Below, one piece after another: positions 4,297 to 45,508 of a stretch of DNA of 48,677 nucleotides; position 1 is the stretch's first letter, and each line of letters opens with the position of its first letter. The notes below the pieces were generated by a model. The model saw only the letters and a list, made by a program, of their open reading frames with translations. It was not told the DNA's origin and searched no databases. The DNA comes from Bacteroidia bacterium. GTDB taxonomy: Bacteria; Bacteroidota; Bacteroidia; Flavobacteriales; Flavobacteriaceae. Both the position numbers and the translations under genes were made by a program. The stretch covers positions 1 to 48,677 of the forward strand of contig JAUIFC010000007.1 in the NCBI GenBank assembly GCA_030429455.1, in the 5' to 3' direction.

Positions 4297-5490
4297 ATGA
4301 AAACACTTTATATAGGAAATCAAACTGACACTATAGAATCATTTCAACAAAACGAAAATGTTTCTGTAGTGTTTTCCGATAATGGTCTAGAAGCAATAAA
4401 TATTCTTAACAATCAGCGTGATATAGATGCCATAGTTTGCGAATATAATCTTGCAGGTAATAATGGTATTTATTTGTACAAAAAATTAAATAACGAATTA
4501 GGGTTATCCGATATTCCATTTATTTTGCTTGTCGAAGAACATAACCCAAAACTGTATAAAGAGGCATTTGATAATGAAATCGATGATTATTTCGTTTTAG
4601 GGACAATTGATTCCGAACGAATTTTAATGAGGGTTAATCAACTCGTTAGAATATATAAGAGTACAATTACTGTAAAAACTGTTCCGGAACAAGAAAAAAT
4701 TAGCTATAAGTTCCCGTTGTCTAAACGGCTTTTTGACATTTTTGTAGCTTCTGCTGTTTTATTAGTGCTATCTCCACTGTTGCTTATCGTCATTTTGGCT
4801 ATTCGCCTAGAATCTAAAGGAAAAGTGTATTACATCGCAAAACGTGTTGGCAGAAAGCAATTTGACTTCTACAAATTAAGATCTATGAAGGTAGGAGCAG
4901 ATAAACTATTGAAAGAACTTGCAAAAAAGAATAATCAATATAATGCGGTAAAGCCAAAAGTTGAAACAGAAAAAGAAATCAAACCCTGTCCTAAGTGTAA
5001 TCAACTCACTCAAGGAGAGCAATGTACGTCTTTTAAGTATGATGGGCAGAATGTCATATGTGAGCATTTATATTTAATGAATAAAGAAATGAGCGCAAAA
5101 GAAAGCTCAAGTTTCATTAAAATTGTAGATGACCCACGAATAACCAAAGTTGGTAAATTTATTAGAAATACAAGTATAGACGAATTGCCACAATTAATTA
5201 ACGTTTTAAAGGGAGATATGTCTCTTGTAGGAAATAGACCTCTTCCCGTTTATGAGGCTGAACTACTTACTGGCGATCAATTGTCTAAACGGTTTTTGGC
5301 TCCAGCTGGTATCACAGGTTTATGGCAGGTGGAATTGCGTGGAAAAGGAGGAGATATGTCCGAAGAAGAAAGAATGTCTTTGGATAATCACTATGCAGAT
5401 CATTTCGTCGGCAATAAATACTCGCTTTGGTATGATATAAAAATCCTTCTAAGAACAGTTCCAGCATTATTTCAAAAAAGCACTGTTTAA
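4297..5490 (+). CDS. Pseudo-receiver / sugar-transferase fusion (initiating phosphoglycosyltransferase)
   Basis: 397 residues. About 1-122 resembles a receiver domain (CEYNLAGNNGIYLYKKL aligns with the D52 region of the gene before) but has E49 in place of the phospho-acceptor Asp, no N-terminal acidic pair and no active-site Lys, so it should not be phosphorylated. Residues 140-397 form a bacterial sugar transferase (PF02397, PglC/WcaJ type): membrane helix about 147-170, KLRSM (193-197), DPRITKVGKFIR (279-290), IDELPQLINVLKGDMSLVG (294-312) and ITGLWQV (339-345). This family transfers a sugar phosphate to undecaprenyl phosphate, starting repeat-unit synthesis. An insert between KLRSM and DPRIT (about 198-275) carries C231, C234, C243 and C255, a possible zinc site. 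Both the fusion and the insert are unusual. Confidence 0.9.
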   Translation: MKTLYIGNQTDTIESFQQNENVSVVFSDNGLEAINILNNQRDIDAIVCEYNLAGNNGIYLYKKLNNELGLSDIPFILLVEEHNPKLYKEAFDNEIDDYFVLGTIDSERILMRVNQLVRIYKSTITVKTVPEQEKISYKFPLSKRLFDIFVASAVLLVLSPLLLIVILAIRLESKGKVYYIAKRVGRKQFDFYKLRSMKVGADKLLKELAKKNNQYNAVKPKVETEKEIKPCPKCNQLTQGEQCTSFKYDGQNVICEHLYLMNKEMSAKESSSFIKIVDDPRITKVGKFIRNTSIDELPQLINVLKGDMSLVGNRPLPVYEAELLTGDQLSKRFLAPAGITGLWQVELRGKGGDMSEEERMSLDNHYADHFVGNKYSLWYDIKILLRTVPALFQKSTV

Positions 5491-5572
5491 TTATTTTTTT
5501 AAAAATAATTGTCTATTCGTTCAGTTAAAGCATATAAGGTTAAAATACTTTATGGTATATACTTATATCATC

Positions 5573-5580
5573 TATATTTG
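5573..5580 (+). promoter_or_regulatory. Candidate -7 promoter element (TATATTTG)
   Basis: Perfect match to the Bacteroidota TAnnTTTG element in the 161-bp gap before the TolC-like gene, about 70 nt upstream of its start. No clear TTG at -33 was found. It may give the export and polymerisation genes their own promoter inside the cluster. Confidence 0.4.
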
Positions 5581-5651
5581 ATTTAAATTTACCAAATCAT
5601 AGACGATTGTTTTTATGCCAATAATATTTATATTTTAATAATATCTTTAAC

Positions 5652-6398
5652 ATGTTTCAAATTGTATTCTCCTTTACACGAAAAACAATTTTTTGTCTCT
5701 TGATGTTATTGTTTTTTTCGTCGTTAGTTGCACAAGACAGTATAAGCAATGTAAATTCGGCAAATTCATTTAGACTTATACTACCAAAGCTAGATGTACT
5801 CGTAGAAGCTGCGTGGGCAAAACATGGTATGGTAAAATCAAGGCAGTCCGAAATAGATGCCAAACAAGCTAATCTAATATCCTTAAAAAGGCAATGGTCA
5901 AAAAACATAGGTTTTCAAGGCGATTATAGATATGGCAATGTTGTCAATTTTTCAGAAAATGTATCAGCTGCAAATACAATAAACCTTGCGAGCAATACCA
6001 CTCAAGTCAATTTTGCAGTAGGCTTCTTTTTAAAATTTCCATTATTTGATTTTTATAGTCGTCAAGCCCAAATTAAGCAAGCTCAAGCTGAAATAGAACA
6101 ATCAGAAAATGTTCTAGAGTTTCAAAAATTTGAAGTAAAAGAGCTTGTAATTAGGCAATACGAGGATTTGATATTAAGGCAAAATCTTTTAGAATTAAGA
6201 ATTAAGAACATGGCTAATGCAGTAACAAGCAAGCAGATGGCAGAAATTGAGTACAGAAATGGCCTAATACCCATAAACGAGTATGTAAGAGTTATAGATA
6301 TCACAGCAAGAATGGAAGCGGATTTCGAAACATCTAAATCCGATTTCCTTATCTCAAAAAAAGTATTAGAGAATCTAACAGGTTTAACATTTAATTAG
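5652..6398 (+). CDS. TolC-like outer-membrane efflux protein, half-size
   Basis: 248 residues with a signal peptide (hydrophobic about 13-27, cleavage near LVAQ). The rest has the long-helix and short beta-strand pattern of outer-membrane efflux proteins: a heptad-rich helix around 160-200, a strand segment near VNFAVGFFLKFPLFDF (114-129), and a conserved-type turn NGLIPINEYV near 212. Normal TolC-family proteins are about 420-480 residues with two such repeats; this has only one. It lies 12 bp before the Wzc-like gene, so it may be the outer-membrane or periplasmic partner for polymer export, substituting for a Wza-type channel. That role is inferred from position. The start gives a good signal peptide. 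Confidence 0.72.
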   Translation: MFQIVFSFTRKTIFCLLMLLFFSSLVAQDSISNVNSANSFRLILPKLDVLVEAAWAKHGMVKSRQSEIDAKQANLISLKRQWSKNIGFQGDYRYGNVVNFSENVSAANTINLASNTTQVNFAVGFFLKFPLFDFYSRQAQIKQAQAEIEQSENVLEFQKFEVKELVIRQYEDLILRQNLLELRIKNMANAVTSKQMAEIEYRNGLIPINEYVRVIDITARMEADFETSKSDFLISKKVLENLTGLTFN

Positions 6399-6410
6399 AT
6401 TGAATAGCAA

Positions 6411-8765
6411 ATGACACTGATAGGTATAATTAAACTTATTCTAAAACACAAAGTGTTACTAATAGTTATACCAATTATTATGTGTTCTTTGGCAATTGTG
6501 CTTACCAAGAATCCAAAATTGGAGTACGAAACACAAGCCTCTGTATACACGGGCATCGCCTCTGGTTCTTCCATCGAAATGAACAAAAAGTTTGATAGAA
6601 ATGCAATTTTTACAGCCTTTGACAACTTAATAAGCATAATAACTTCAAGAGAAACCATAGAGGAGGTTGGAGTACGATTACTAGCCCAGCATTTGTTGAT
6701 GGATAATCCTGAAATGGAATATATCTCCTCTGAATATCTAAACGAATTGAAGGAATTTGCTCCAGATTCAATTTATGATTATGTTGTCAAATCAGATACA
6801 GAACAGAATCAAGATAGACCAGGATACATCCCGCCAGGTGTTTCAATTGAAGATTATGAAAAAACTGTTGCCAATCTAATTAAAGTTAAGAACAGTAGTA
6901 GTGATAATTTTGTTTATGAATTGCTTAACTATGAACATCCTGTATATTCGTTTAAAGCTCTTTCCGAAGTATCAGTTGCGCGCGTAAGTTCTAGTGATGT
7001 TGTGGAGTTAAAATTTAAAGCTGGAGACCCAGGTATTTGTAAACAAACTCTTCTATTATTAATCGATGTTTGTTCCAAGAAGTATAAGATTTTTAAGGAG
7101 AGTAGCTCAGATGTAGTTGTAAAGTATTTTGAAGGACAACTTGCAAATTCTGAACGAAAGCTAAAACAAGCAGAAAATGAACTTTTAAAATACAAACAAG
7201 AGAACAATATCATAAACTATTATGAGCAAAGTAAGGCTGTTGCTGTTGTTAGAGAAGATATGGAAGTTGCCTATAAAAATAAAATTGCAGCACTTGCCGG
7301 ATCAAAAGCCTCTAAACGAAAGCTAAGAAAGGAGTTAGAAGTTAATGGCAAAATATTGGAATTAAACGACCAAGTTTTAAAAGATAAAGATATACTTGCA
7401 AATATTCGATACCAATTGGTGTTAGCAGAATCAAAGTCTGATGGCTCTGATGAAAGCATTGCAAATATCGATTCCCTTCAGAATAGCATTAATGAAATAC
7501 AGTCCAAAATAGACGATAAGGTTAAAAAATTATATGCTGCCAGCAATTCTATAGACGGAATCCCTATGACTAAAATGATGCCGAATTGGATCACAAATAT
7601 GGTGAATACCGAGAACCTAGAAGCCGAGGTGGATTTGATGACTAAGCATACCAACGAATTCCTAGATGAAGTAAAAAAATATGCGCCGTTTGGAGCAAAT
7701 ATCAAACGATTAGAACGGAAAATAAGAGTAATTGAAGAAGAATATTTGGAAATTTTATATGGGTTAAACACAGCAAAGATAAAACTTCAAGATACCCAGA
7801 TTGCTGGAAATTTGGTTACGATAGATCCTCCGTTTTTTCCAATTAAGGCAATACCATCAAAACGCAAAATAGTTATTGTAGCAGCTGGATTTGTGAGTTT
7901 TGTACTTGTTTTAGGGATAATATTAGTGATGGAGTTTTTTGACAGTACCTTGAAAAATGAAAAAGTTGCGTCCGCAAAAATTAATTTACAGTCTTTAGGA
8001 ATGCTCTCTAAGATTACCAAATATAATAATGTACTTAATTTTATTCAAACTCAAGATCGCTTGATGGATTTTGTAATGCAAAATTTTGTACGTTCTTATG
8101 ATAATACTAAGGTTATAGATCACCCAAAAGTAATTATTGTATTTAGTACACAATCTGATGAAGGTAAGACTGTAATAGCCGGTAATCTCGCTAGAAAACT
8201 GAAGAGTTATGGTAAAAAGGTATTGTTTTTAAACCATAGTGATGTAGAAAAGCAAAAAGAGTTAGTTCATTCAAATAGTTGGTACTATCGGCTTTTAGGG
8301 TACCAAGACCCAAGAGTGGATTATTCCCACCCTTTTTTGGATGATATTAGAAATTATTTGGAGAGACATGAGTATTTAAAATACGAGGTAAATGATTTCT
8401 ATACCCATGCAAGGTCCTATCAAGATTTGGCATTTAATCCTTATACTTTAATTTTTGAGGACTTAGATTTCGTTATTGTAGAATTGCCAAGTGTTCTTAA
8501 ACAAAATTATCCAGCAGGACTACTTAGTAGCTCCGACCTTGCCGTGCTAGTTTGTAGATCAAATAGGGTTTGGTCAAAAGCAGATCAGAATATCATTGAT
8601 AATATTAATGCTTTGGTTAAGACTGATATAAAATTTGTTTGCAATGGAGTGGAATTGGAAGAAACGGAGACAGTACTGGGAGAAATACCTAAGAAAAGAT
8701 CAATCTTAAGGAAAAAAGTTAAAAGCTTTTTTAAGCTGCAATTCCTAACAAAAAAAACTATTTAA
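6411..8765 (+). CDS. Wzc/ExoP-like polysaccharide co-polymerase with degenerate BY-kinase domain
   Basis: 784 residues. Inner-membrane chain-length regulator: TM1 about 13-31, a long periplasmic Wzz region with coiled coil about 235-450, a PxxxxxP stretch before TM2 (about 477-482), TM2 about 486-507, then a cytoplasmic P-loop ATPase. The Walker A is STQSDEGKT (579-587). Walker A' is altered (VLFLNHSDVEK, lacking the usual Asp-x-Asp), the Walker B-like segment reads VIVELPSV (Glu for Asp), and the C-terminus (about 755-784) has no tyrosine cluster. Family members with intact kinases control length by cycles of tyrosine phosphorylation; this one probably cannot autophosphorylate in the usual way. 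It is tightly linked to the TolC-like gene (12 bp) and the flippase (5 bp). Confidence 0.9.
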   Translation: MTLIGIIKLILKHKVLLIVIPIIMCSLAIVLTKNPKLEYETQASVYTGIASGSSIEMNKKFDRNAIFTAFDNLISIITSRETIEEVGVRLLAQHLLMDNPEMEYISSEYLNELKEFAPDSIYDYVVKSDTEQNQDRPGYIPPGVSIEDYEKTVANLIKVKNSSSDNFVYELLNYEHPVYSFKALSEVSVARVSSSDVVELKFKAGDPGICKQTLLLLIDVCSKKYKIFKESSSDVVVKYFEGQLANSERKLKQAENELLKYKQENNIINYYEQSKAVAVVREDMEVAYKNKIAALAGSKASKRKLRKELEVNGKILELNDQVLKDKDILANIRYQLVLAESKSDGSDESIANIDSLQNSINEIQSKIDDKVKKLYAASNSIDGIPMTKMMPNWITNMVNTENLEAEVDLMTKHTNEFLDEVKKYAPFGANIKRLERKIRVIEEEYLEILYGLNTAKIKLQDTQIAGNLVTIDPPFFPIKAIPSKRKIVIVAAGFVSFVLVLGIILVMEFFDSTLKNEKVASAKINLQSLGMLSKITKYNNVLNFIQTQDRLMDFVMQNFVRSYDNTKVIDHPKVIIVFSTQSDEGKTVIAGNLARKLKSYGKKVLFLNHSDVEKQKELVHSNSWYYRLLGYQDPRVDYSHPFLDDIRNYLERHEYLKYEVNDFYTHARSYQDLAFNPYTLIFEDLDFVIVELPSVLKQNYPAGLLSSSDLAVLVCRSNRVWSKADQNIIDNINALVKTDIKFVCNGVELEETETVLGEIPKKRSILRKKVKSFFKLQFLTKKTI

Positions 8766-14101: not shown

Positions 14102-15259
14102 ATGAAAATAGGTATCGAAGGACAACGATTATTTAGGGTAAAAAAGCACGGCATGGATATGGTAGCTTTAGAACTGATTAATAATTTACAAGAAATAGAT
14201 AAAGAAAATGAGTATGTTATTTTCGTAAAACCAGACGAAGATTCTTCTGCATTAAAAGAAACTGACAATTTTAAAATTGTTGAACTAAGCGGTGGTATTT
14301 ATCCTGTTTGGGAACAATTCGCCTTGCCAAAAGCAGCCAAAGCGCATGGATGTGATATGCTTCACTGTACAAGTAATACAGCACCAATTTTTACCGATAT
14401 GCCAATAGTAACTACATTGCATGATATCATTTACTTAGAAAAATCCTATCTCCAAATTCTTAAAAGTAGAGGAACCCTTTATCAAAATATTGGAAACGTT
14501 TATAGAAAAATGATTGTACCTAGTGTAATGCAAAGGAGCAAGATTGTAATTACAGTATCCAAGTATGAAAAAAATCGAATTGCCGAATTCTTTGCATTAA
14601 AAGATGATAAAAAATTATCTGCTGTTTATAATGGTGTTGGCAGTCATTTCGAGCCAATATCCGACTCATCAGTACTTAGTAAGGTAAAAGAAAAGTACAA
14701 ATTGCCAGACAGATTCTTCTTCTTTTTAGGCAATACTGCTCCAAAGAAGAATACGAGGGGAACATTAAAAGCATATTCAGATTTTCTTAAAAATTCGAGT
14801 TCAGATTGTAAATTGGTTATGCTAGATTACGATATGGCTGAATTAAAGAAAATTCTTGAAGACATAGGAGATCCAGAATTAATTAATCACATCATTTTAA
14901 CAGGATATGTAAAAAATACAGATTTGCCTGCCATTTATTCGTTATGCGAAATTTTCTTATACCCATCTTTACGCGAAAGTTTTGGTATTCCAATCTTGGA
15001 AGCCATGTCCTGTGGTGTTCCTGTCATCACGGCAAATACGTCTTCTATGCCAGAAGTGTCTGGAAATGCAGCCCATCTTGTGGACCCGTTTAAACCAGAA
15101 GAAATCACTCAAGGCATAGAAAAAATTCTTGAAAACAAGGACTATAAAGAGGAGTTGGTAGAAAAAGGCTTAGTCCAAGCAAAGAAGTTCTCATGGCATG
15201 CAATGGCAGAGCAAGTATTGGAATTGTACAAAGGCTTATATAAAGAACTTAAAAGTTAG
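14102..15259 (+). CDS. Family 4 glycosyltransferase (GT-B fold)
   Basis: 385 residues from ATG at 14102. The frame could open earlier at a GTG (14039), but that would run into the end of the preceding glycosyltransferase gene, and MKIGIEGQRLF is the usual N-terminus of this family. The C-terminal Rossmann domain has LRESFGIPILEAMSCGVPV, with the E-x7-E catalytic/donor motif in ESFGIPILE, preceded by FFFLGNTAPKKN. GT4 enzymes are retaining and use nucleotide sugars in the cytoplasm. It lies 10 bp after one GT gene and 5 bp before the next, so it probably adds one sugar of the repeat unit. Confidence 0.92.
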   Translation: MKIGIEGQRLFRVKKHGMDMVALELINNLQEIDKENEYVIFVKPDEDSSALKETDNFKIVELSGGIYPVWEQFALPKAAKAHGCDMLHCTSNTAPIFTDMPIVTTLHDIIYLEKSYLQILKSRGTLYQNIGNVYRKMIVPSVMQRSKIVITVSKYEKNRIAEFFALKDDKKLSAVYNGVGSHFEPISDSSVLSKVKEKYKLPDRFFFFLGNTAPKKNTRGTLKAYSDFLKNSSSDCKLVMLDYDMAELKKILEDIGDPELINHIILTGYVKNTDLPAIYSLCEIFLYPSLRESFGIPILEAMSCGVPVITANTSSMPEVSGNAAHLVDPFKPEEITQGIEKILENKDYKEELVEKGLVQAKKFSWHAMAEQVLELYKGLYKELKS

Positions 15260-21595: not shown

Positions 21596-23209
21596 TTGAA
21601 GACCTTAAGACAATTCTTTTCACTTATTTTTTTATGCCTAATAATTTACAGTTGTGCGCAAATTGGTAGTATTGGTGGTGGTCCAAAAGATGAGCTTCCT
21701 CCTGAATTTGTGAGTTCAAGACCTGAAAATTTTTCCATCAATTTTGATAAAGACGAAATCAGAATTTTATTTAATGAGTACGTTAAATTGAAGAACCCGC
21801 AGCAACAAATAATTTTTTCTCCGCCTATAACCCCAAAGCCGATCATATCTCCAATGGGCTTGGCATCAAAGGAAGTAAAGATAGAACTTGAAAGTGACTC
21901 TTTGAAAGCAAACACGACATACACCATAAATTTTGGACAAAGTATAGAAGATAATAATGAAGGTAACCCTTTGCCATTTTTTAAATATGTATTTTCAACA
22001 GGAACATATTTGGATTCGTTAAAACTTGAAGGAACTGTAAATGACGTGTTTTATAGAGAGAATCCTGAATTAGTAAGTGTTATGCTTTATGAAAAAGATA
22101 GTCTTTATTCGGATTCGGTAGTTTACAAAAAAGCACCTACTTACATTGCCTACGCTAAGGATTCGACCAATACATTTACACTTGAAAATATGCGAGCAGG
22201 GACTTATAGGCTTATTGCTTTGGAAGACAAGAATAACAATTACAAGTTTGATCAAGGACGAGAAAAAATAGGATTTGCAGATAGTCTAGTCGAACTACCA
22301 ACAACTCAAACGTATGATATTAATTTGTTTGAGACCACAAGAGACTTTAAACCAAAACGACCCAAGCAAATTACCAATAATCAGTTAATATTTGGTTATG
22401 AAGGTGTTTTAGATAGTACAGATTTTCAAATTACACTTTTATCTAAGGCTCCTGATACATTGGAAACATCGATAACTAAAAGCAGAAAAACAGATACCTT
22501 GAATTACTACTTTAAACCGTATTTTGAAAATGATAGCCTTCTGTTTTTATTTTCGTATAAAGATGTTAAGGATACCTTGACAGTTAAAACCAGAGAGCTT
22601 CCAAAAGATTCCTTAGTTGTTGAAGTTTATCCTAAAAGCAAAATTGAATTTAACCAATCGGTTTATATTAGGCCTAATCTTCCGATTATAAGTTTTGATG
22701 AAAAGAAAATTGAATTGATGGATGCAGATTCAACTGAAATTCCGTTTCAGACGAAGCTTGACAGTTTTAACAATCAGATTGAAATAACTTTTGAAAAGAA
22801 AGATAAAACAAGGTACGATTTTACGTTTTATCCCAATACTTTGACCGATTTTTTTGGAAATACAAACGATACCATCTCGGCAAAGTTTAATACCAAACAA
22901 GCATCCGATTACAGCACTTTAGATTTGACAATTAACAATTTAGATCGTTATCCTGCCATTGTTCAGTTAATTGACGATAAAGATAAGGTTGACAAAACCA
23001 TAATCCTTACCGATGCAAACAAACACTTTTTTGATTACATCAATCCTGGTGAATACCATGTTAAAGTGATTTATGATGATAATAACAATGGCAAATGGGA
23101 CGCTGGAGATTATCTAAAACATATTCAGCCTGAAGAGGTTAAATTTGTTAAAATTGACGAGCCTTTGCGCGCCAATTGGGATGTAATCAAAACAATTAGT
23201 TTACCGTAA
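21596..23209 (+). CDS. Big_5 (SbsA Ig-like) domain lipoprotein
   Basis: 537 residues beginning with TTG. This start gives an ideal lipoprotein signal (K/R, hydrophobic core, lipobox IYSC with C20), and no ATG lies nearby, so TTG is well supported. Residues about 35-118 form a Big_5/SbsA Ig-like domain (PPEFVSSRPENFSINFDKDE, then ANTTYTINFG). Two Asp/Asn loops, DKNNNYKFDQG (about 210) and YDDNNNGKWDAGDY (about 500), look like calcium-binding or carboxypeptidase-regulatory-type turns. This Bacteroidota family is envelope-located with unknown function. Its 3' end overlaps the convergent nitrilase gene by 14 bp. Confidence 0.86.
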   Translation: MKTLRQFFSLIFLCLIIYSCAQIGSIGGGPKDELPPEFVSSRPENFSINFDKDEIRILFNEYVKLKNPQQQIIFSPPITPKPIISPMGLASKEVKIELESDSLKANTTYTINFGQSIEDNNEGNPLPFFKYVFSTGTYLDSLKLEGTVNDVFYRENPELVSVMLYEKDSLYSDSVVYKKAPTYIAYAKDSTNTFTLENMRAGTYRLIALEDKNNNYKFDQGREKIGFADSLVELPTTQTYDINLFETTRDFKPKRPKQITNNQLIFGYEGVLDSTDFQITLLSKAPDTLETSITKSRKTDTLNYYFKPYFENDSLLFLFSYKDVKDTLTVKTRELPKDSLVVEVYPKSKIEFNQSVYIRPNLPIISFDEKKIELMDADSTEIPFQTKLDSFNNQIEITFEKKDKTRYDFTFYPNTLTDFFGNTNDTISAKFNTKQASDYSTLDLTINNLDRYPAIVQLIDDKDKVDKTIILTDANKHFFDYINPGEYHVKVIYDDNNNGKWDAGDYLKHIQPEEVKFVKIDEPLRANWDVIKTISLP

Positions 23210-23978
23210 AGCTATCCCTGTCGTCCAAAAAACCTAGTTTTTCTCTTATAGAATTGAGTTTGTCAAAAGACAATCGTTGAGTTTCAACAAATGCTTTGTC
23301 GTAATCAAATGTCGAAATATGTTCGCCTAAAACATCATAGATGGCGGAATGGCCTACATAAGGATAATTATTACCATCTGTACCAACTCGATTGACACCA
23401 ATGCAATAACACATGTTTTCGATAGCTCTTGCTTGTAGAAGGGTGTCCCAGGCTTTTATTCGACGTTCCGGCCAGTTGGCCACATAAATTAAAAGGTCAT
23501 AATCATCTTGGTATCTAGCCCATACAGGGAATCTTAAGTCATAGCAAATTAATGGACATATTTTCCAACCTTTATAGTCAACAATGAGGCGTTCACGTCC
23601 TGCAGTGTAATTTTCATGCTCTCCTGCCAAAGTGAACAAATGTTTTTTATCGTAAGTGTGATAACTGCCGTCTGGTTTTACAAAAAATAATCTGTTGTAA
23701 AATTGTTCGTTTTCTTTTATGATAATACTACCTATAATAGCGCCAGATTTATGTTCAGCTGTCTTTTTTAACCAATCTAATGTCCTGCCTTCGGGTTTTT
23801 CAAAGAGACTTTTAGGATTCATGCTAAACCCTGTTGTAAACATTTCTGGTAATACAATGATATCAGTTTCATTTTCAATAGATTGGATGAGCGTTTCAAT
23901 CTTATTTAGATTTGCGCTTGGATTTTCCCAGACTAAATCGGTTTGAATAATCGTTACAGAAAGATCACTTGATGCCAT
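23196..23978 (-). CDS. Carbon-nitrogen hydrolase, omega-amidase type (nitrilase superfamily)
   Basis: 260 residues. The Glu-Lys-Cys triad is E45 (VLPEMFTTGF), K111 (YDKKHLF) and C145 (ICYDLRFPVWAR). The YafV/Nit2-like layout, including FTLAGEHENYTAG after the Lys, points to an omega-amidase that hydrolyses alpha-ketoglutaramate or ketosuccinamate, products of glutamine/asparagine transamination. Cytoplasmic. It is the third gene of a reverse-strand operon behind the M3 peptidase (6-bp gap), and its end overlaps the convergent lipoprotein gene. Exact substrate is inference from subfamily motifs. Confidence 0.92.
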   Translation of the reverse strand: MASSDLSVTIIQTDLVWENPSANLNKIETLIQSIENETDIIVLPEMFTTGFSMNPKSLFEKPEGRTLDWLKKTAEHKSGAIIGSIIIKENEQFYNRLFFVKPDGSYHTYDKKHLFTLAGEHENYTAGRERLIVDYKGWKICPLICYDLRFPVWARYQDDYDLLIYVANWPERRIKAWDTLLQARAIENMCYCIGVNRVGTDGNNYPYVGHSAIYDVLGEHISTFDYDKAFVETQRLSFDKLNSIREKLGFLDDRDSFTVN

Positions 23979-23984
23979 AGGTAA

Positions 23985-26222
23985 TTATTTTTTTACTAAA
24001 CCTGCTCTTTTTAACAGGGCTTCTGGGTTCGGTTCTTTTCCTCTAAATCTTTTGTAAAGCGTCATAGGATCTTCGGAGCCACCTTTGGAGAGGACATGTG
24101 TTTTGAAAGCTTGGGCAACCTCTTTGTTAAAAATTCCATGTTCTTTAAAAGCTTCAAAAGCATCTGCGTCAAGAACTTCTGCCCATTTATAGGAATAGTA
24201 GCCTGATGAATAACCACCTTGAAAAATATGAGAAAATGCTGTACTCATGCAGTTTTCTTCTACATCTTCCATTAATGCAGTTTTTTGAAAAGCTTCTTTC
24301 TCAAAGGATTTAATACTTTTTATGTTTTCTAGTTGAGCGGTATGCCAAGCCATATCTAGAAATCCAAAACTTAATTGTCTTAAGGTTTGCATGCCTTCAT
24401 TGAAATTGGCTGCGACTTTGATTTGTTCAATATAATCTTGAGGTATCGATTCTCCTGTTTGATAGTGTTTTGCAAAACCATCTAAGGCTTCTTTTTCAAA
24501 GCACCAATTTTCTAGTATTTGGCTTGGTAATTCCACAAAATCCCAATAGACTGAAGTGCCTGAGAGCGAACGATAGGTCGTGTCTGCTAAAATTCCATGA
24601 AGCGCATGACCAAACTCGTGAAAGAGCGTTGTAACCTCATTGAAGGTTAATAAGGCCGGTGCATCTTTACCGGGTTTGGAAAAATTGCAAACTATAGATA
24701 TTTGTGGTCTTTCATTAGAATCTTTGGTTTTAAATTGACTTTTGTAACTGGTCATCCATGCACCACCTCGTTTGCCTTCTCGAGGATGAAAATCTGCATA
24801 AAATGTAGCTTGGAAATTGCCCTGTTCATCAAAAATCTCGTAGGTCATGACATCCTCATGATACACGTCTATTTGGTTATTTTCTTTGAATGTTAAACCA
24901 AATAAGCGGTGAGCTACTTCAAAAACGCCTTCAATAACTTGGTTTAGAGGAAAATAAGGCTTTAAAATATTGTCATCAAGATTAAACTTCTTTTGTTTTA
25001 GTTTTTCAGTGTAATAAGCCAAATCCCATTTTTGAAGATCTTCCAAGCCATCGGTATCTTTTGCAAAAGCCTTGAGCTCTTCTAACTCTTTTTCAGCAAA
25101 AGGTTTCGCTTTCTCCAATAATTCTTCCAGAAACTTGATGACATTTTTAGGATGTTTTGCCATTCGTTCTTCAAGTGTGTAATGCGAATGTGTTTGATAT
25201 CCCAATAGTTTAGCTCGTTTATCTCTAAGGCTTACAATAGATTTAATGATGTCCTCGTTGTTATTTTCGTTTTTTTGAAATCCTCTTTTGCCAAAGGCTA
25301 AAGCCAATTCTTTCCTCAAATTTCTGTTCTGGCAAAACTTCATAAATGGGATATAGCTTGGATATTGAAGCGTGAATATGAACCCTTTTTTGTCATTGTG
25401 TTTGGCAAGCATTGCCGCTTCTTCCAGTTGTTGTTCAGGTATTCCGCTTAAGTCGCTTTTATCTTCGACATGCAGTTGATAGGCATTTGTTTCGGCAAGA
25501 ACGTGTTGTCCAAATTTTAATGAAAGCGTAGATAATTCGCTATCAATTTCTCTAAGAGATTTCTGTTCTTCATCCGTTAGAAGAGCTCCGTTTCGTACAA
25601 AACTTTTATAATGCTTGTCTATAAGAGAGAGTTGCTCAGGTGAATATGCAAAAGAGCCAGGATTGAGCGAAAAGCTTTTCGGATCCAAACCAAATGTAGC
25701 AGGATTGAGCGATAGAAGTAATGGATCTAAGCTAAGATTTTGTGGGTTTAGTCCAATGACTGCGGGGTTGAGGCTAAAATTTGAAGGATTTAAACTTATC
25801 AGGTTTGGATCGAGACCAAAGGCTGAAGGGTCTAAACCAAATTGCTCTGGTTTAAAGCTAAGTTTTTCTTTTAAATCGTAGACCTTTTTTACATTTTCAA
25901 AAAGAGCTTTGTTGGTCATGATGTCATTTTGAAAGTTGCTTAACAATGGTGAAACTTCTTGTGCAAGGCTTTGGATGTCTTCGTTGGTCTCTGCAGAATT
26001 AAGATTAAATAGTATTTGTGTAATACGCTCCAATTGATAGCCCGCTTGTTCCAAAGCTTCTATCGTGTTACTAAAGTTTGGACTGTCTTCTTTTGTGATA
26101 CTGTCAATTTCAGCTTTAGCTAAATTTATGGCTTGATGGATGGCTGGTTTAAAATGCTCAACTTTAATCAATGAAAATTGAGGTAGATCAAATTTCTGCA
26201 AAAGTGGATTAGTATTACTCAT
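23985..26222 (-). CDS. M3-family oligopeptidase (Dcp/OpdA type) with heptad-repeat insert
   Basis: 745 residues. Zinc metallopeptidase with HEFGH (535-539) and third ligand E564 in DFVELPSQ; cleaves short peptides, usually in the cytoplasm. Other family marks are ADFHPREGKRGGAW (476-489) and the C-terminal SYKWAEVLDAD. No signal peptide. The protein is about 70 residues longer than usual because residues 121-197 are replaced by about eleven in-phase 7-residue units such as FGLDPSA, FSLNPAV and FGLDPKS. After the insert the normal family sequence resumes (IDKHYKSFVRNGALL). The gene lies 4 bp behind the CarboxypepD_reg gene and 6 bp before the nitrilase. The catalytic domain looks intact. Confidence 0.95.
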   Translation of the reverse strand: MSNTNPLLQKFDLPQFSLIKVEHFKPAIHQAINLAKAEIDSITKEDSPNFSNTIEALEQAGYQLERITQILFNLNSAETNEDIQSLAQEVSPLLSNFQNDIMTNKALFENVKKVYDLKEKLSFKPEQFGLDPSAFGLDPNLISLNPSNFSLNPAVIGLNPQNLSLDPLLLSLNPATFGLDPKSFSLNPGSFAYSPEQLSLIDKHYKSFVRNGALLTDEEQKSLREIDSELSTLSLKFGQHVLAETNAYQLHVEDKSDLSGIPEQQLEEAAMLAKHNDKKGFIFTLQYPSYIPFMKFCQNRNLRKELALAFGKRGFQKNENNNEDIIKSIVSLRDKRAKLLGYQTHSHYTLEERMAKHPKNVIKFLEELLEKAKPFAEKELEELKAFAKDTDGLEDLQKWDLAYYTEKLKQKKFNLDDNILKPYFPLNQVIEGVFEVAHRLFGLTFKENNQIDVYHEDVMTYEIFDEQGNFQATFYADFHPREGKRGGAWMTSYKSQFKTKDSNERPQISIVCNFSKPGKDAPALLTFNEVTTLFHEFGHALHGILADTTYRSLSGTSVYWDFVELPSQILENWCFEKEALDGFAKHYQTGESIPQDYIEQIKVAANFNEGMQTLRQLSFGFLDMAWHTAQLENIKSIKSFEKEAFQKTALMEDVEENCMSTAFSHIFQGGYSSGYYSYKWAEVLDADAFEAFKEHGIFNKEVAQAFKTHVLSKGGSEDPMTLYKRFRGKEPNPEALLKRAGLVKK
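25632..25862 (-). repeat. In-frame 21-bp tandem repeat (7-residue units, about 11 copies)
   Basis: On the minus strand the repeat encodes units of pattern [F/I/L]-[G/S]-L-[D/N]-P-x-x. On the plus strand successive 21-bp units begin GGATTGAGC, GGATCCAAA, GGATTGAGC, GGATCTAAG, GGGTTTAGT, GGGTTGAGG and so on. All copies are in phase with no indels but have diverged at the DNA level, so the array is old. First unit LSFKPEQ and last unit FAYSPEQ resemble each other and the family's normal x-PEQ segment, which suggests that the array grew from this sequence. Confidence 0.93.
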
Positions 26223-26226
26223 AATT

Positions 26227-27699
26227 CTATTTGTATTCTTTTATTTCTTTTGTGGCTTGGATGACATCATATTCTTCCCAAATCAAAGGGTCGTATCGAT
26301 CTATTTTTTCTAAAAATATGTAATCTTCTACACTAAAACCAAACTCTTTATCTGGATTTATTTCAGAAGTATCCAGGACTACATATTCCTCTTCAGATAA
26401 GGAATTGCTTTCAACCAATAACGATAATTTGAATTTAATGCGTTCATCTCTATTGTCATTATTTTCTTTAAAAACAAAACTTCTAGAAAAATATATATAA
26501 TTGTAAGCACTGGATTTGTAGATATAAGGATAATACTTTCCTTCTTCATTTTTTCTAAACAGATATTGAAATTTAGTGTTATCCACTCTAAATTTGAAAC
26601 CTAATAAAAATTTCAGGTTTATGCCTGCTTCTTTTTCGCCATCTAGGAGTTCGTAATCCAACTTTAATAGCCCAAAGTCTTCTGCATTTACATAGGCGAT
26701 TCCAGAATATTTTGCAGAGCCTTTTAAAGGTTTAAAACTGATGACATAAACAATTTCTCCATTAAAGAAACTTGTGTTTTCCAGTGTAAACTCATATTTC
26801 TTGCTGTTTTCAAAAAAATGTAAACCTGCCAGGTCTTGAGATTTGCCAATGATTGACGCGTACGAATAGGTGTAAAATCTGTTTTTTAGCGTATCTTTTT
26901 TCTCATCATCTTTTTCGTCTGTGATAAAATCTTTTGTACTCAGTGAATCTTGTAAAGGGATAATTCCTGTTCGCACTTTGAATGATGTTTTTGTGTCTAA
27001 AACATCGAAGAGTTCTTTAAAAACATCATTTTGAATTTTTTCCATGGAAGTATCTTCTTCTTCATTGATAAGAAGTGTAGATTTTATCCTATCGATACCA
27101 ACAGAATCTTTAAGGTAATAAGCGTTATACAATTCGTCCCTAAAACTCGAGGAATTTTTGCCTTGAATTCTTGTAAAATAGTCTTCAACTTTTTGATTGA
27201 ATTGTTTTCGTTTGGATTTGGTCATAAACGACGACCTGTCAAGTTCGATTGAAGTTTTTTCAGGTCTGTAGGTTTCTTTTCGTCTTGAGAATATTTTTAA
27301 CTTACTAGTATTGATAGTATGATTGGACTCTAAATTTTCTTTTAGTTTTTCAATTATCTGCTTTGCAGACAAATTGTCGTTAGAGACGACCACTTCATCA
27401 AGCATTTCTTGTTGAACGTTTAAGAAAATAGTGTCTGTTTTTTGAGCAGTTTCTACTGTAATGGATTGTTCTTGATACCCTAAGCTAGCAATGTAGATGG
27501 AATCTGAACGTTTCAAATTCGTAATATTGAGTTTAAAAATACCTTCTTGGTTTGTAATAGCGCCTTTGTTCGTATCCGTATAAATACTGGCAAAAACTAC
27601 TGGCAGATTATTTTCTTTATCGTAAACTACTTTTTCTATATATTGGCTATGAGCAATATAGCTTATAAATAAAAAAAATATAATATTTCCTTTTAGCAT
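26227..27699 (-). CDS. Exported CarboxypepD_reg-like domain protein
   Basis: 490 residues. A signal peptide (hydrophobic about 5-17, cleavage near AHSQ) is followed by a carboxypeptidase-regulatory-like beta-sandwich (about 20-105: IEKVVYDKENNLPVVFASI, GAITNQEGIFKLNI, IASLGYQEQSI), as found at the N-terminus of SusC proteins, then MLDEVVVS. The remaining 380 residues have no TonB-dependent receptor features; they contain alternating strands (TFTL-, YVISFKP-like) that could form a beta-rich domain. Probably periplasmic or outer-membrane associated. First gene of a three-gene reverse operon with the M3 peptidase and nitrilase, with a plausible promoter at 27724-27751. Function unknown. Confidence 0.8.
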   Translation of the reverse strand: MLKGNIIFFLFISYIAHSQYIEKVVYDKENNLPVVFASIYTDTNKGAITNQEGIFKLNITNLKRSDSIYIASLGYQEQSITVETAQKTDTIFLNVQQEMLDEVVVSNDNLSAKQIIEKLKENLESNHTINTSKLKIFSRRKETYRPEKTSIELDRSSFMTKSKRKQFNQKVEDYFTRIQGKNSSSFRDELYNAYYLKDSVGIDRIKSTLLINEEEDTSMEKIQNDVFKELFDVLDTKTSFKVRTGIIPLQDSLSTKDFITDEKDDEKKDTLKNRFYTYSYASIIGKSQDLAGLHFFENSKKYEFTLENTSFFNGEIVYVISFKPLKGSAKYSGIAYVNAEDFGLLKLDYELLDGEKEAGINLKFLLGFKFRVDNTKFQYLFRKNEEGKYYPYIYKSSAYNYIYFSRSFVFKENNDNRDERIKFKLSLLVESNSLSEEEYVVLDTSEINPDKEFGFSVEDYIFLEKIDRYDPLIWEEYDVIQATKEIKEYK

Positions 27700-44659: not shown

Positions 44660-45508
44660 ATGAAAAGACAATTTTCAATTTTAGCCATGATTTGTTTTAT
44701 GGTATTTAGCATTTCAAACATCAATGCTAATACTGCATTATTTCAAGATGACACAGAGGTTGCTCAGGATTCTACAGCTGTTGAAGAACCAGTAGTAGAA
44801 GAAGTACAAGAAGTAGCACCTGTTCCAATGGAAGAAGCAGAAGAGGAAGTAGTAGAAGAAGAAGAACTAACTTTCCATCAAGAACTCAAGAAAAGATTTA
44901 TTGAAGGTGGTCCTACATTTATGGGGATTGTACTTTTATGTTTAATATTAGGTTTAGCAATTGCTATCGAAAGAATTATTTTCTTAAATGCTTCGACAAC
45001 CAATTCTAGAAAATTAGCTCAAAAAGTTGAAGATGCTTTAGAGAGTGGAGGTGTTGACGCCGCTAAAGAAGTTTGTAGAAACACTTCTGGTCCTGTGGCT
45101 TCAATTTACTACCAAGGTTTAGATAGAATGGAAGAGGGTATCGATGTGGCAGAGAAGTCTATTGTTGCTTATGGGGGTGTTCAAATGGGACAATTAGAAA
45201 AAAATGTCTCTTGGGTATCTTTATTTATAGCATTAGCGCCTATGCTTGGTTTCATGGGTACGGTAATTGGTATGATTCAGGCATTCGATAAAATTGAAGC
45301 AGCTGGAGATATGCAACCTTCATTAGTGGCTGGTGGTATTAAAGTAGCACTTCTTACTACGGTATTCGGACTTATTGTTGCGATTATTCTTCAAATATTT
45401 TATAATTACATCGTAGCAAAAATTGATAGTATTGTAAATGATATGGAAGATGCTTCTATTACATTAGTAGATATTTTAGTTGCGCATAACAACAAGCACT
45501 TAAGATAA
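44660..45508 (+). CDS. exbB: ExbB/TolQ/MotA-type proton channel protein
   Basis: 282 residues. Signal-like N-terminus (about 1-24), an acidic Pro/Val/Glu-rich periplasmic stretch (about 28-72), then three membrane helices (about 92-112, about 180-202, and about 224-250) with the channel motif SWVSLFIALAPMLGFMGTV. Together with ExbD it uses the proton gradient to drive TonB, Tol-type or other envelope machines. The long acidic N-terminal region is typical of the Bacteroidota form and not of E. coli ExbB. The next gene starts in the stop codon (1-nt overlap). Confidence 0.95.
   Translation: MKRQFSILAMICFMVFSISNINANTALFQDDTEVAQDSTAVEEPVVEEVQEVAPVPMEEAEEEVVEEEELTFHQELKKRFIEGGPTFMGIVLLCLILGLAIAIERIIFLNASTTNSRKLAQKVEDALESGGVDAAKEVCRNTSGPVASIYYQGLDRMEEGIDVAEKSIVAYGGVQMGQLEKNVSWVSLFIALAPMLGFMGTVIGMIQAFDKIEAAGDMQPSLVAGGIKVALLTTVFGLIVAIILQIFYNYIVAKIDSIVNDMEDASITLVDILVAHNNKHLR

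Follow-up and report, generated by a model that had tools for sequence, protein, structure and literature searches.

How did a peptidase of family M3 come to carry an array of eleven heptads between two of its helices, and what has kept that array recognizable? The gene in question (positions 23985–26222, reverse strand) is located in the window, by which we mean the whole stretch of 48,677 nucleotides analyzed here, and it encodes a protein of 745 amino acids (aa) with an ATG start. We identified the product as an M3 zinc oligopeptidase from its open reading frame (ORF), its Pfam match, and its fold matches. Specifically, the protein scores 495.2 bits against the Pfam peptidase family M3 (PF01432; cut-off of 27). 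Its scores fall below the NCBIfam cut-offs of both the oligopeptidase A equivalog (NF008159; 583.9 versus 927) and the peptidyl-dipeptidase Dcp equivalog (NF007624; 540.2 versus 944), and we therefore assign it to family M3 only. The zinc motif HEFGH (residues 535–539; 24606–24620, reverse strand) is intact, and Glu564 (24531–24533, reverse strand), the third zinc ligand by position, is situated 28 residues past Glu536; both features are invariant in 14 of the 14 rows of alignment A1. The same spacing separates Glu464 and Glu492 of K-26-DCP (PMC5157764), the one enzyme with which we compared it.

The AlphaFold2 model has a confident core (whole-model mean pLDDT of 83.8), and its 15 best PDB fold matches are all M3 enzymes. 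It shares its fold with K-26-DCP, Escherichia coli Dcp, and the plant organellar oligopeptidase (TM of 0.81–0.85 by query length), but the array has no counterpart in the three phmmer alignments printed for these enzymes. In M3 enzymes, two subdomains flank the catalytic channel, and closure of these enzymes is believed to involve a hinge motion (PMC5157764; PMC9266445).

The array occupies residues 121–197 (25632–25862, reverse strand). Translation confirms the eleven in-phase heptads of the preliminary description, with no insertions or deletions between them: LSFKPEQ, FGLDPSA, FGLDPNL, ISLNPSN, FSLNPAV, IGLNPQN, LSLDPLL, LSLNPAT, FGLDPKS, FSLNPGS, and FAYSPEQ. The motif proposed there, [FIL]-[GS]-L-[DN]-P-x-x, stands with a qualification, as its phase is kept in 11 of 11 units, and its residues match exactly in nine. 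These nine are units 2–10 (25653–25841, reverse strand), and the partial matches are the two end units, both of which carry P-E-Q. In unit 1 (LSFKPEQ; 25842–25862, reverse strand), F-K replaces L-[DN], and in unit 11 (FAYSPEQ; 25632–25652, reverse strand), A-Y-S deviates from the motif. The protein identity at a lag of seven residues is 0.41 (calculated for residues 123–199, two residues off the register used above), a value equaled in none of 100,000 residue shuffles.

At the DNA level, the array has a period of 21 bp (lag identities of 0.42 at 21, 0.53 at 42, and 0.49 at 63), which bears out the earlier claim that diverged 21-bp units encode the heptads. A period of 7 bp is absent (0.27 at lag 7 and 0.28 at lag 14, with most other lags at 0.17–0.30), and we rejected a heptanucleotide origin on this ground. 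Tandem Repeats Finder at a score of 30 did not report the array, and the repeat is therefore visible mainly at the protein level.

Relative to the M3 family, the array is an insertion, as had been proposed from the sequence. We searched 27 genomes of the genus, including that of the window, and obtained matches in 26; the exception, G018, is 52 per cent complete. In an alignment of 25 congeneric sequences, from which a paralog (L002/L003) and the ortholog of G020 were left out, the loop at the insertion site is 12 aa long in 23 sequences, 18 aa long in L004 (from G024), and 82 aa long in the window protein. The difference between 82 and 12, 70 aa, is exactly ten heptads. The G020 ortholog (L007; G020:C1, about 2114689–2116711) is split between two frames, with pieces matching residues 1–128 and 194–276 followed by one matching residues 265–744, and was left out for this reason; the first two pieces overlap in DNA, so that they leave no space for an array.

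Beyond the genus, 228 of 249 genomes of the family matched the protein at E-values up to 1e-190 (own genome included), and among the matches listed all open frames are at most 719 aa long except that of the window (751 aa). When the insert and its flanks were compared to 299 genomes of the family, 16 matched, including the genome of the window, and by matched range or inspection none of the other 15 has the array. One locus that seemed to span the insert (L062, from G083) proved on inspection to have no array, and another (L070, from G164) was rejected as an intergenic 7-bp repeat. Eight named genomes were also searched, and six matched; the best orthologs from Aquimarina, two Allomuricauda, Aequorivita, and a Chryseobacterium metagenome-assembled genome (MAG) are open frames of 678–708 aa, and those of Aquimarina, Allomuricauda, and Aequorivita are 63–64 per cent identical to the window protein, a level of identity that makes Flavobacteriaceae the likely family of the host. 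Only one of the genomes searched, which is 86.48 per cent complete, carries the array. Neither a relative of the same length lacking the pattern nor an indication that the segment is normal family sequence emerged among the matches listed for the relatives searched. The repeat is thus real, protein-level, situated within a known enzyme family, and, among the genomes searched, lineage-specific.

A candidate for the sequence from which the array grew is found in its close relatives. Two orthologs from the sister clade, L005 and L006, have a 12-aa loop without an array, and at the insertion site they carry a single heptad of the array pattern, F-N-L-N-P-E-Q, with which unit 11 aligns. Their M3 cores are 72 and 71 per cent identical to that of the window protein, respectively, and their gene neighborhoods resemble that of the window. 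Specifically, one neighboring ORF of 490 aa (26227–27699, reverse strand) has relatives in the M3 flanks of L005, L006, L007, L021, L022, L023, and L027, and another of 260 aa (23196–23978, reverse strand), whose product we take to be omega-amidase-like, has relatives in those of L005, L006, and L007. In a tree reconstructed with the loop masked, the window protein (L001) and L004 are sisters (support of 0.999), and L005 and L006 join them (support of 1.0). Relatives of the two neighbor genes were not found in the 1.1–1.5 kb that flank the M3 gene of L004.

The preliminary description suggested that the array arose from the host sequence. Because F-N-L-N-P-E-Q is present in two sister-clade orthologs and the length difference is exactly ten times seven residues, we favor this origin: the array most likely grew by duplication of a native heptad. 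Yet the proline of the native box is found in only four of the 23 unexpanded congeneric loops (L005, L006, L021, and L022), and the sister L004 has threonine. The 18-aa loop of L004, DDKENLMDASKRGYNTEQ, contains M-D-A and Y-N-T at a distance of seven residues, a spacing suggestive of a worn second unit, although this loop is longer than the others by six residues and not by seven.

Comparison of codons between units points to old duplications. Codons for the same amino acid are identical in 59 of 154 pairs, and 57.4 are expected from codon usage (simulated standard deviation of 8.0); between adjacent units, same-residue codons are identical in 5 of 26 cases. Since synonymous sites are randomized, we regard the duplications as old. 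The longest exact repeat within the array is 13 bp (simulated P-value = 0.17), and there is therefore no clear trace of recent duplication. A recent 42-bp duplication was likewise considered and is not claimed, with a P-value of 0.10 for the excess of identical codons at a lag of two units. Of the 503 codons that specify the same amino acid in the window gene and in L004, 216 are identical, against an expectation of 215.7. The length of the branch therefore suffices for both the birth and the decay of the array after the split, and horizontal transfer need not be invoked.

The protein motif did not decay along with the DNA. Proline is retained in 11 of 11 units, leucine in 9 of 11, and aspartate or asparagine in 9 of 11. 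Between units, the first and second positions of the proline codon are 100 per cent alike, and the second position is 82 per cent alike for leucine, 82 per cent for aspartate/asparagine, and 100 per cent for the hydrophobic residue. At third positions, the similarity is 20–35 per cent, except in the hydrophobic column (67 per cent), where TTT is common, and in heptad positions 6 and 7 it is close to random for every codon position. As judged from these codons, a motif retained over randomized third positions is the pattern that purifying selection on the protein would be predicted to leave, and the array has the appearance of a young repeat domain that selection maintains.

An alternative is that the array expanded neutrally in a disordered, length-tolerant loop and that the motif persists merely because the duplications are recent. 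The low pLDDT of the array and its presence in a single lineage among the genomes searched conform to such growth, but neutral decay would erase motif and synonymous similarity together, and proline, leucine, and aspartate/asparagine are kept despite randomized synonymous codons. We consider this explanation unlikely.

It is likewise unlikely that the array is a 21-bp minisatellite, of a kind seen in other Bacteroidota, that landed in frame and resembles the native heptad by luck. Bacterial 21-bp minisatellites and heptanucleotide repeats do resemble the window array in that one frame translates with a period of seven as x-x-[LF]-[DN]-P-x-x, and 21-bp arrays of this type are present in relatives at the level of order and class (L193 and L247, for example); moreover, in most congeners the native box has no proline. 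However, the DNA units of these repeats are near-identical, and those of the window array are diverged and lie inside a gene of 745 codons. To compare the two, we used 145 loci from DNA-pattern and protein searches plus the window (146 sources), a set chosen by pattern whose counts speak for the set only. At least 41 sources, the window included, contain an unbroken run of five or more [hydrophobic][DNS]P heptads, although these 41 loci include double views of single arrays (L193/L196 and L247/L256) and many are simple repeats of the same kind. DNA identity at lag 21 is lowest in the window (0.42; one locus follows at 0.57, and each of the remaining 39 reaches at least 0.80). When the best value among lags 21, 42, and 63 is taken instead, identity is 0.55 in the window and at least 0.84 in each of the other 40 loci; the high identity between units that defines a 21-bp minisatellite is thus not seen in the window array. 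Stop codons interrupt the array in 21 of the 41 scanned loci. Also at odds with a landed minisatellite are the gain of exactly ten units of native size, the P-E-Q in both end units, and the single match, namely the M3 array itself, that the array query found in the window's own genome.

Four of 395 genomes matched in the order-level search (E-values up to 1e-4) and ten of 395 in the class-level search (E-values up to 1e-5), both counts including the window's own genome. Of the six other order-level loci, the five inspected are all repeats, most frames of which contain stops. At 13 of the 14 other class-level loci, best-lag DNA identity over the matched stretch is 0.71–0.95, and the array string of the fourteenth (L249) reaches at least 0.90. 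In L193, L195, L247, L248, and others, 21-bp arrays translate in one frame as x-x-[LFW]-[ND]-P-x-x, and a single genome, G956, yielded 153 first-look candidates. The genome-wide pattern scan gave at least 119 stretches. An M3 relative is present in one of the 145 loci fetched by pattern or array, L171 from a Prevotellaceae MAG, in which a heptanucleotide-type repeat at 2858 is about 1.9 kb from a 683-aa M3 gene (4745–6793), and the match is outside the gene. In an archaeal MAG, the 631-aa reverse-strand ORF of L140 ends near GFDPSQMGFDPSQMGFDPS, so that a protein other than this peptidase carries a brief run of heptads.

Within the genus, the weaker matches have E-values of 0.0017–0.67, and two apparent second copies were rejected as chance. 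The first, on G015:C70, is antisense to a 14-aa repeat in a collagen-like protein; this locus (L034, 944–2980) encodes 678 aa with a collagen-like stretch and repeats of the STAWG..TEASGSR type. The second, on G017:C90, is an intergenic 7-bp repeat (L035, about 2040–2210) of CTTCACT, CTTCACC, and CTTCATC units that is open in several frames and translates to 7-residue repeats; two more of its frames are among the weaker matches. The viral pattern scan gave six stretches, of which L241 and L245 are the same stretch, with three heptads within a 348-aa ORF, and the other four are in frames of 6–58 aa. A search for viral relatives found none with the single protein as query but succeeded with the alignment as query.

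The AlphaFold2 model places the array between two helices, one at residues 105–121 (25860–25910, reverse strand) and one at residues 195–210 (25593–25640, reverse strand), the latter beginning at the proline of unit 11. In the model built with an alignment, residues 125–190 have pLDDT below 50, with means of 26–49 for blocks of the array, and a model of the array only has a mean pLDDT of 43.9. As the alignment contains no homolog of the array, the low pLDDT is not evidence of disorder; for the same low pLDDT, the short turns described next may be artifacts. In the aligned model, four-residue helices are predicted at P-x-x-F in four units (residues 125–128, 132–135, 174–177, and 181–184), and units 4–7 and 10 have none. 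In the array-only model, all seven helical segments that span at least three residues begin at a heptad proline, and there are two short strands (143–145 and 148–150). These positions recall the ASX helix N-cap with a hydrophobic patch between N' and N4, as described in PMC11101637: by our own fit, the order L-[DN]-P-x-x-[FIL] corresponds to N', Ncap, N1, N2, N3, and N4. That motif is normally single and located at a helix start, whereas in the array ten further copies follow one another and long helices are absent.

The array matches no Pfam family (E-values up to 10), no NCBIfam family (E-values up to 1), and one PDB sequence (E-value of 1.5); an arm composed only of repeated helix-start boxes would therefore be an architecture with no family match in the libraries searched. 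The likeness to solenoid repeats noted in the preliminary description is not supported by these results, and a true beta-solenoid, in which, say, three heptads would make up each coil with strands at F-S-L and turns at D/N-P, is improbable, since despite the alternating hydrophobic positions 1 and 3, the Asx-Pro turn motif that follows them, and the two short strands of the low-confidence array-only model, neither AlphaFold2 model has such a fold and the array lacks both a Pfam or NCBIfam match and any PDB sequence match better than E-value 1.5.

We consider it probable that the array originated by serial duplication of an N-cap box from the host heptad and has since been held by selection, with an arm alongside an intact enzyme as the result. 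The ancestral loop, between two helices in the N-terminal part of the M3 protein, would have contained one heptad similar to F-N-L-N-P-E-Q that started the second helix. This 21-bp helix-start box would then have been duplicated in tandem and in frame to eleven copies, along the line leading to the window species and perhaps already in common with its sister. Selection would afterwards have held the cap pattern in every copy, and the two x positions would have been left to drift. The outcome would be an arm of 70 residues, in which short helical turns, each with its cap, probably follow one another, inserted between two helices of an enzyme with the catalytic core of other M3 peptidases; the arm most likely provides a surface, for contact or spacing, that has no part in catalysis. 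We advance more tentatively, as a possibility that we would not yet bet on, a stronger version of this proposal: that the box has been copied stepwise, from one in most of the genus through a possibly worn second in the sister to eleven here, and that selection maintains the eleven units as a folded or binding arm, in which case the array would be a new repeat domain near its birth.

Short-repeat domains are thought to arise via tandem duplication. To our knowledge, it is rare for such domains that donor segment, lineage, and DNA-repeat decay can all be seen at once. Here, a fixed 12-aa loop in 23 congeners, a gain of ten heptads in one species, and a likely donor heptad in the sister clade are seen together, and, combined with decayed DNA under a retained protein pattern, they allow direct tests of how a repeat domain within an enzyme arises and is maintained. 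The titles and abstract openings of the open-access papers listed by our searches contain no report of such a repeat in M3 peptidases. Sets of short repeats are described as enriched in repeats of five and seven residues (PMC12871928).

Elsewhere in the window, a 28-bp tandem repeat is present in two copies at 14942–14997, and short, GAA-rich tandem repeats are located at 44783–44866.
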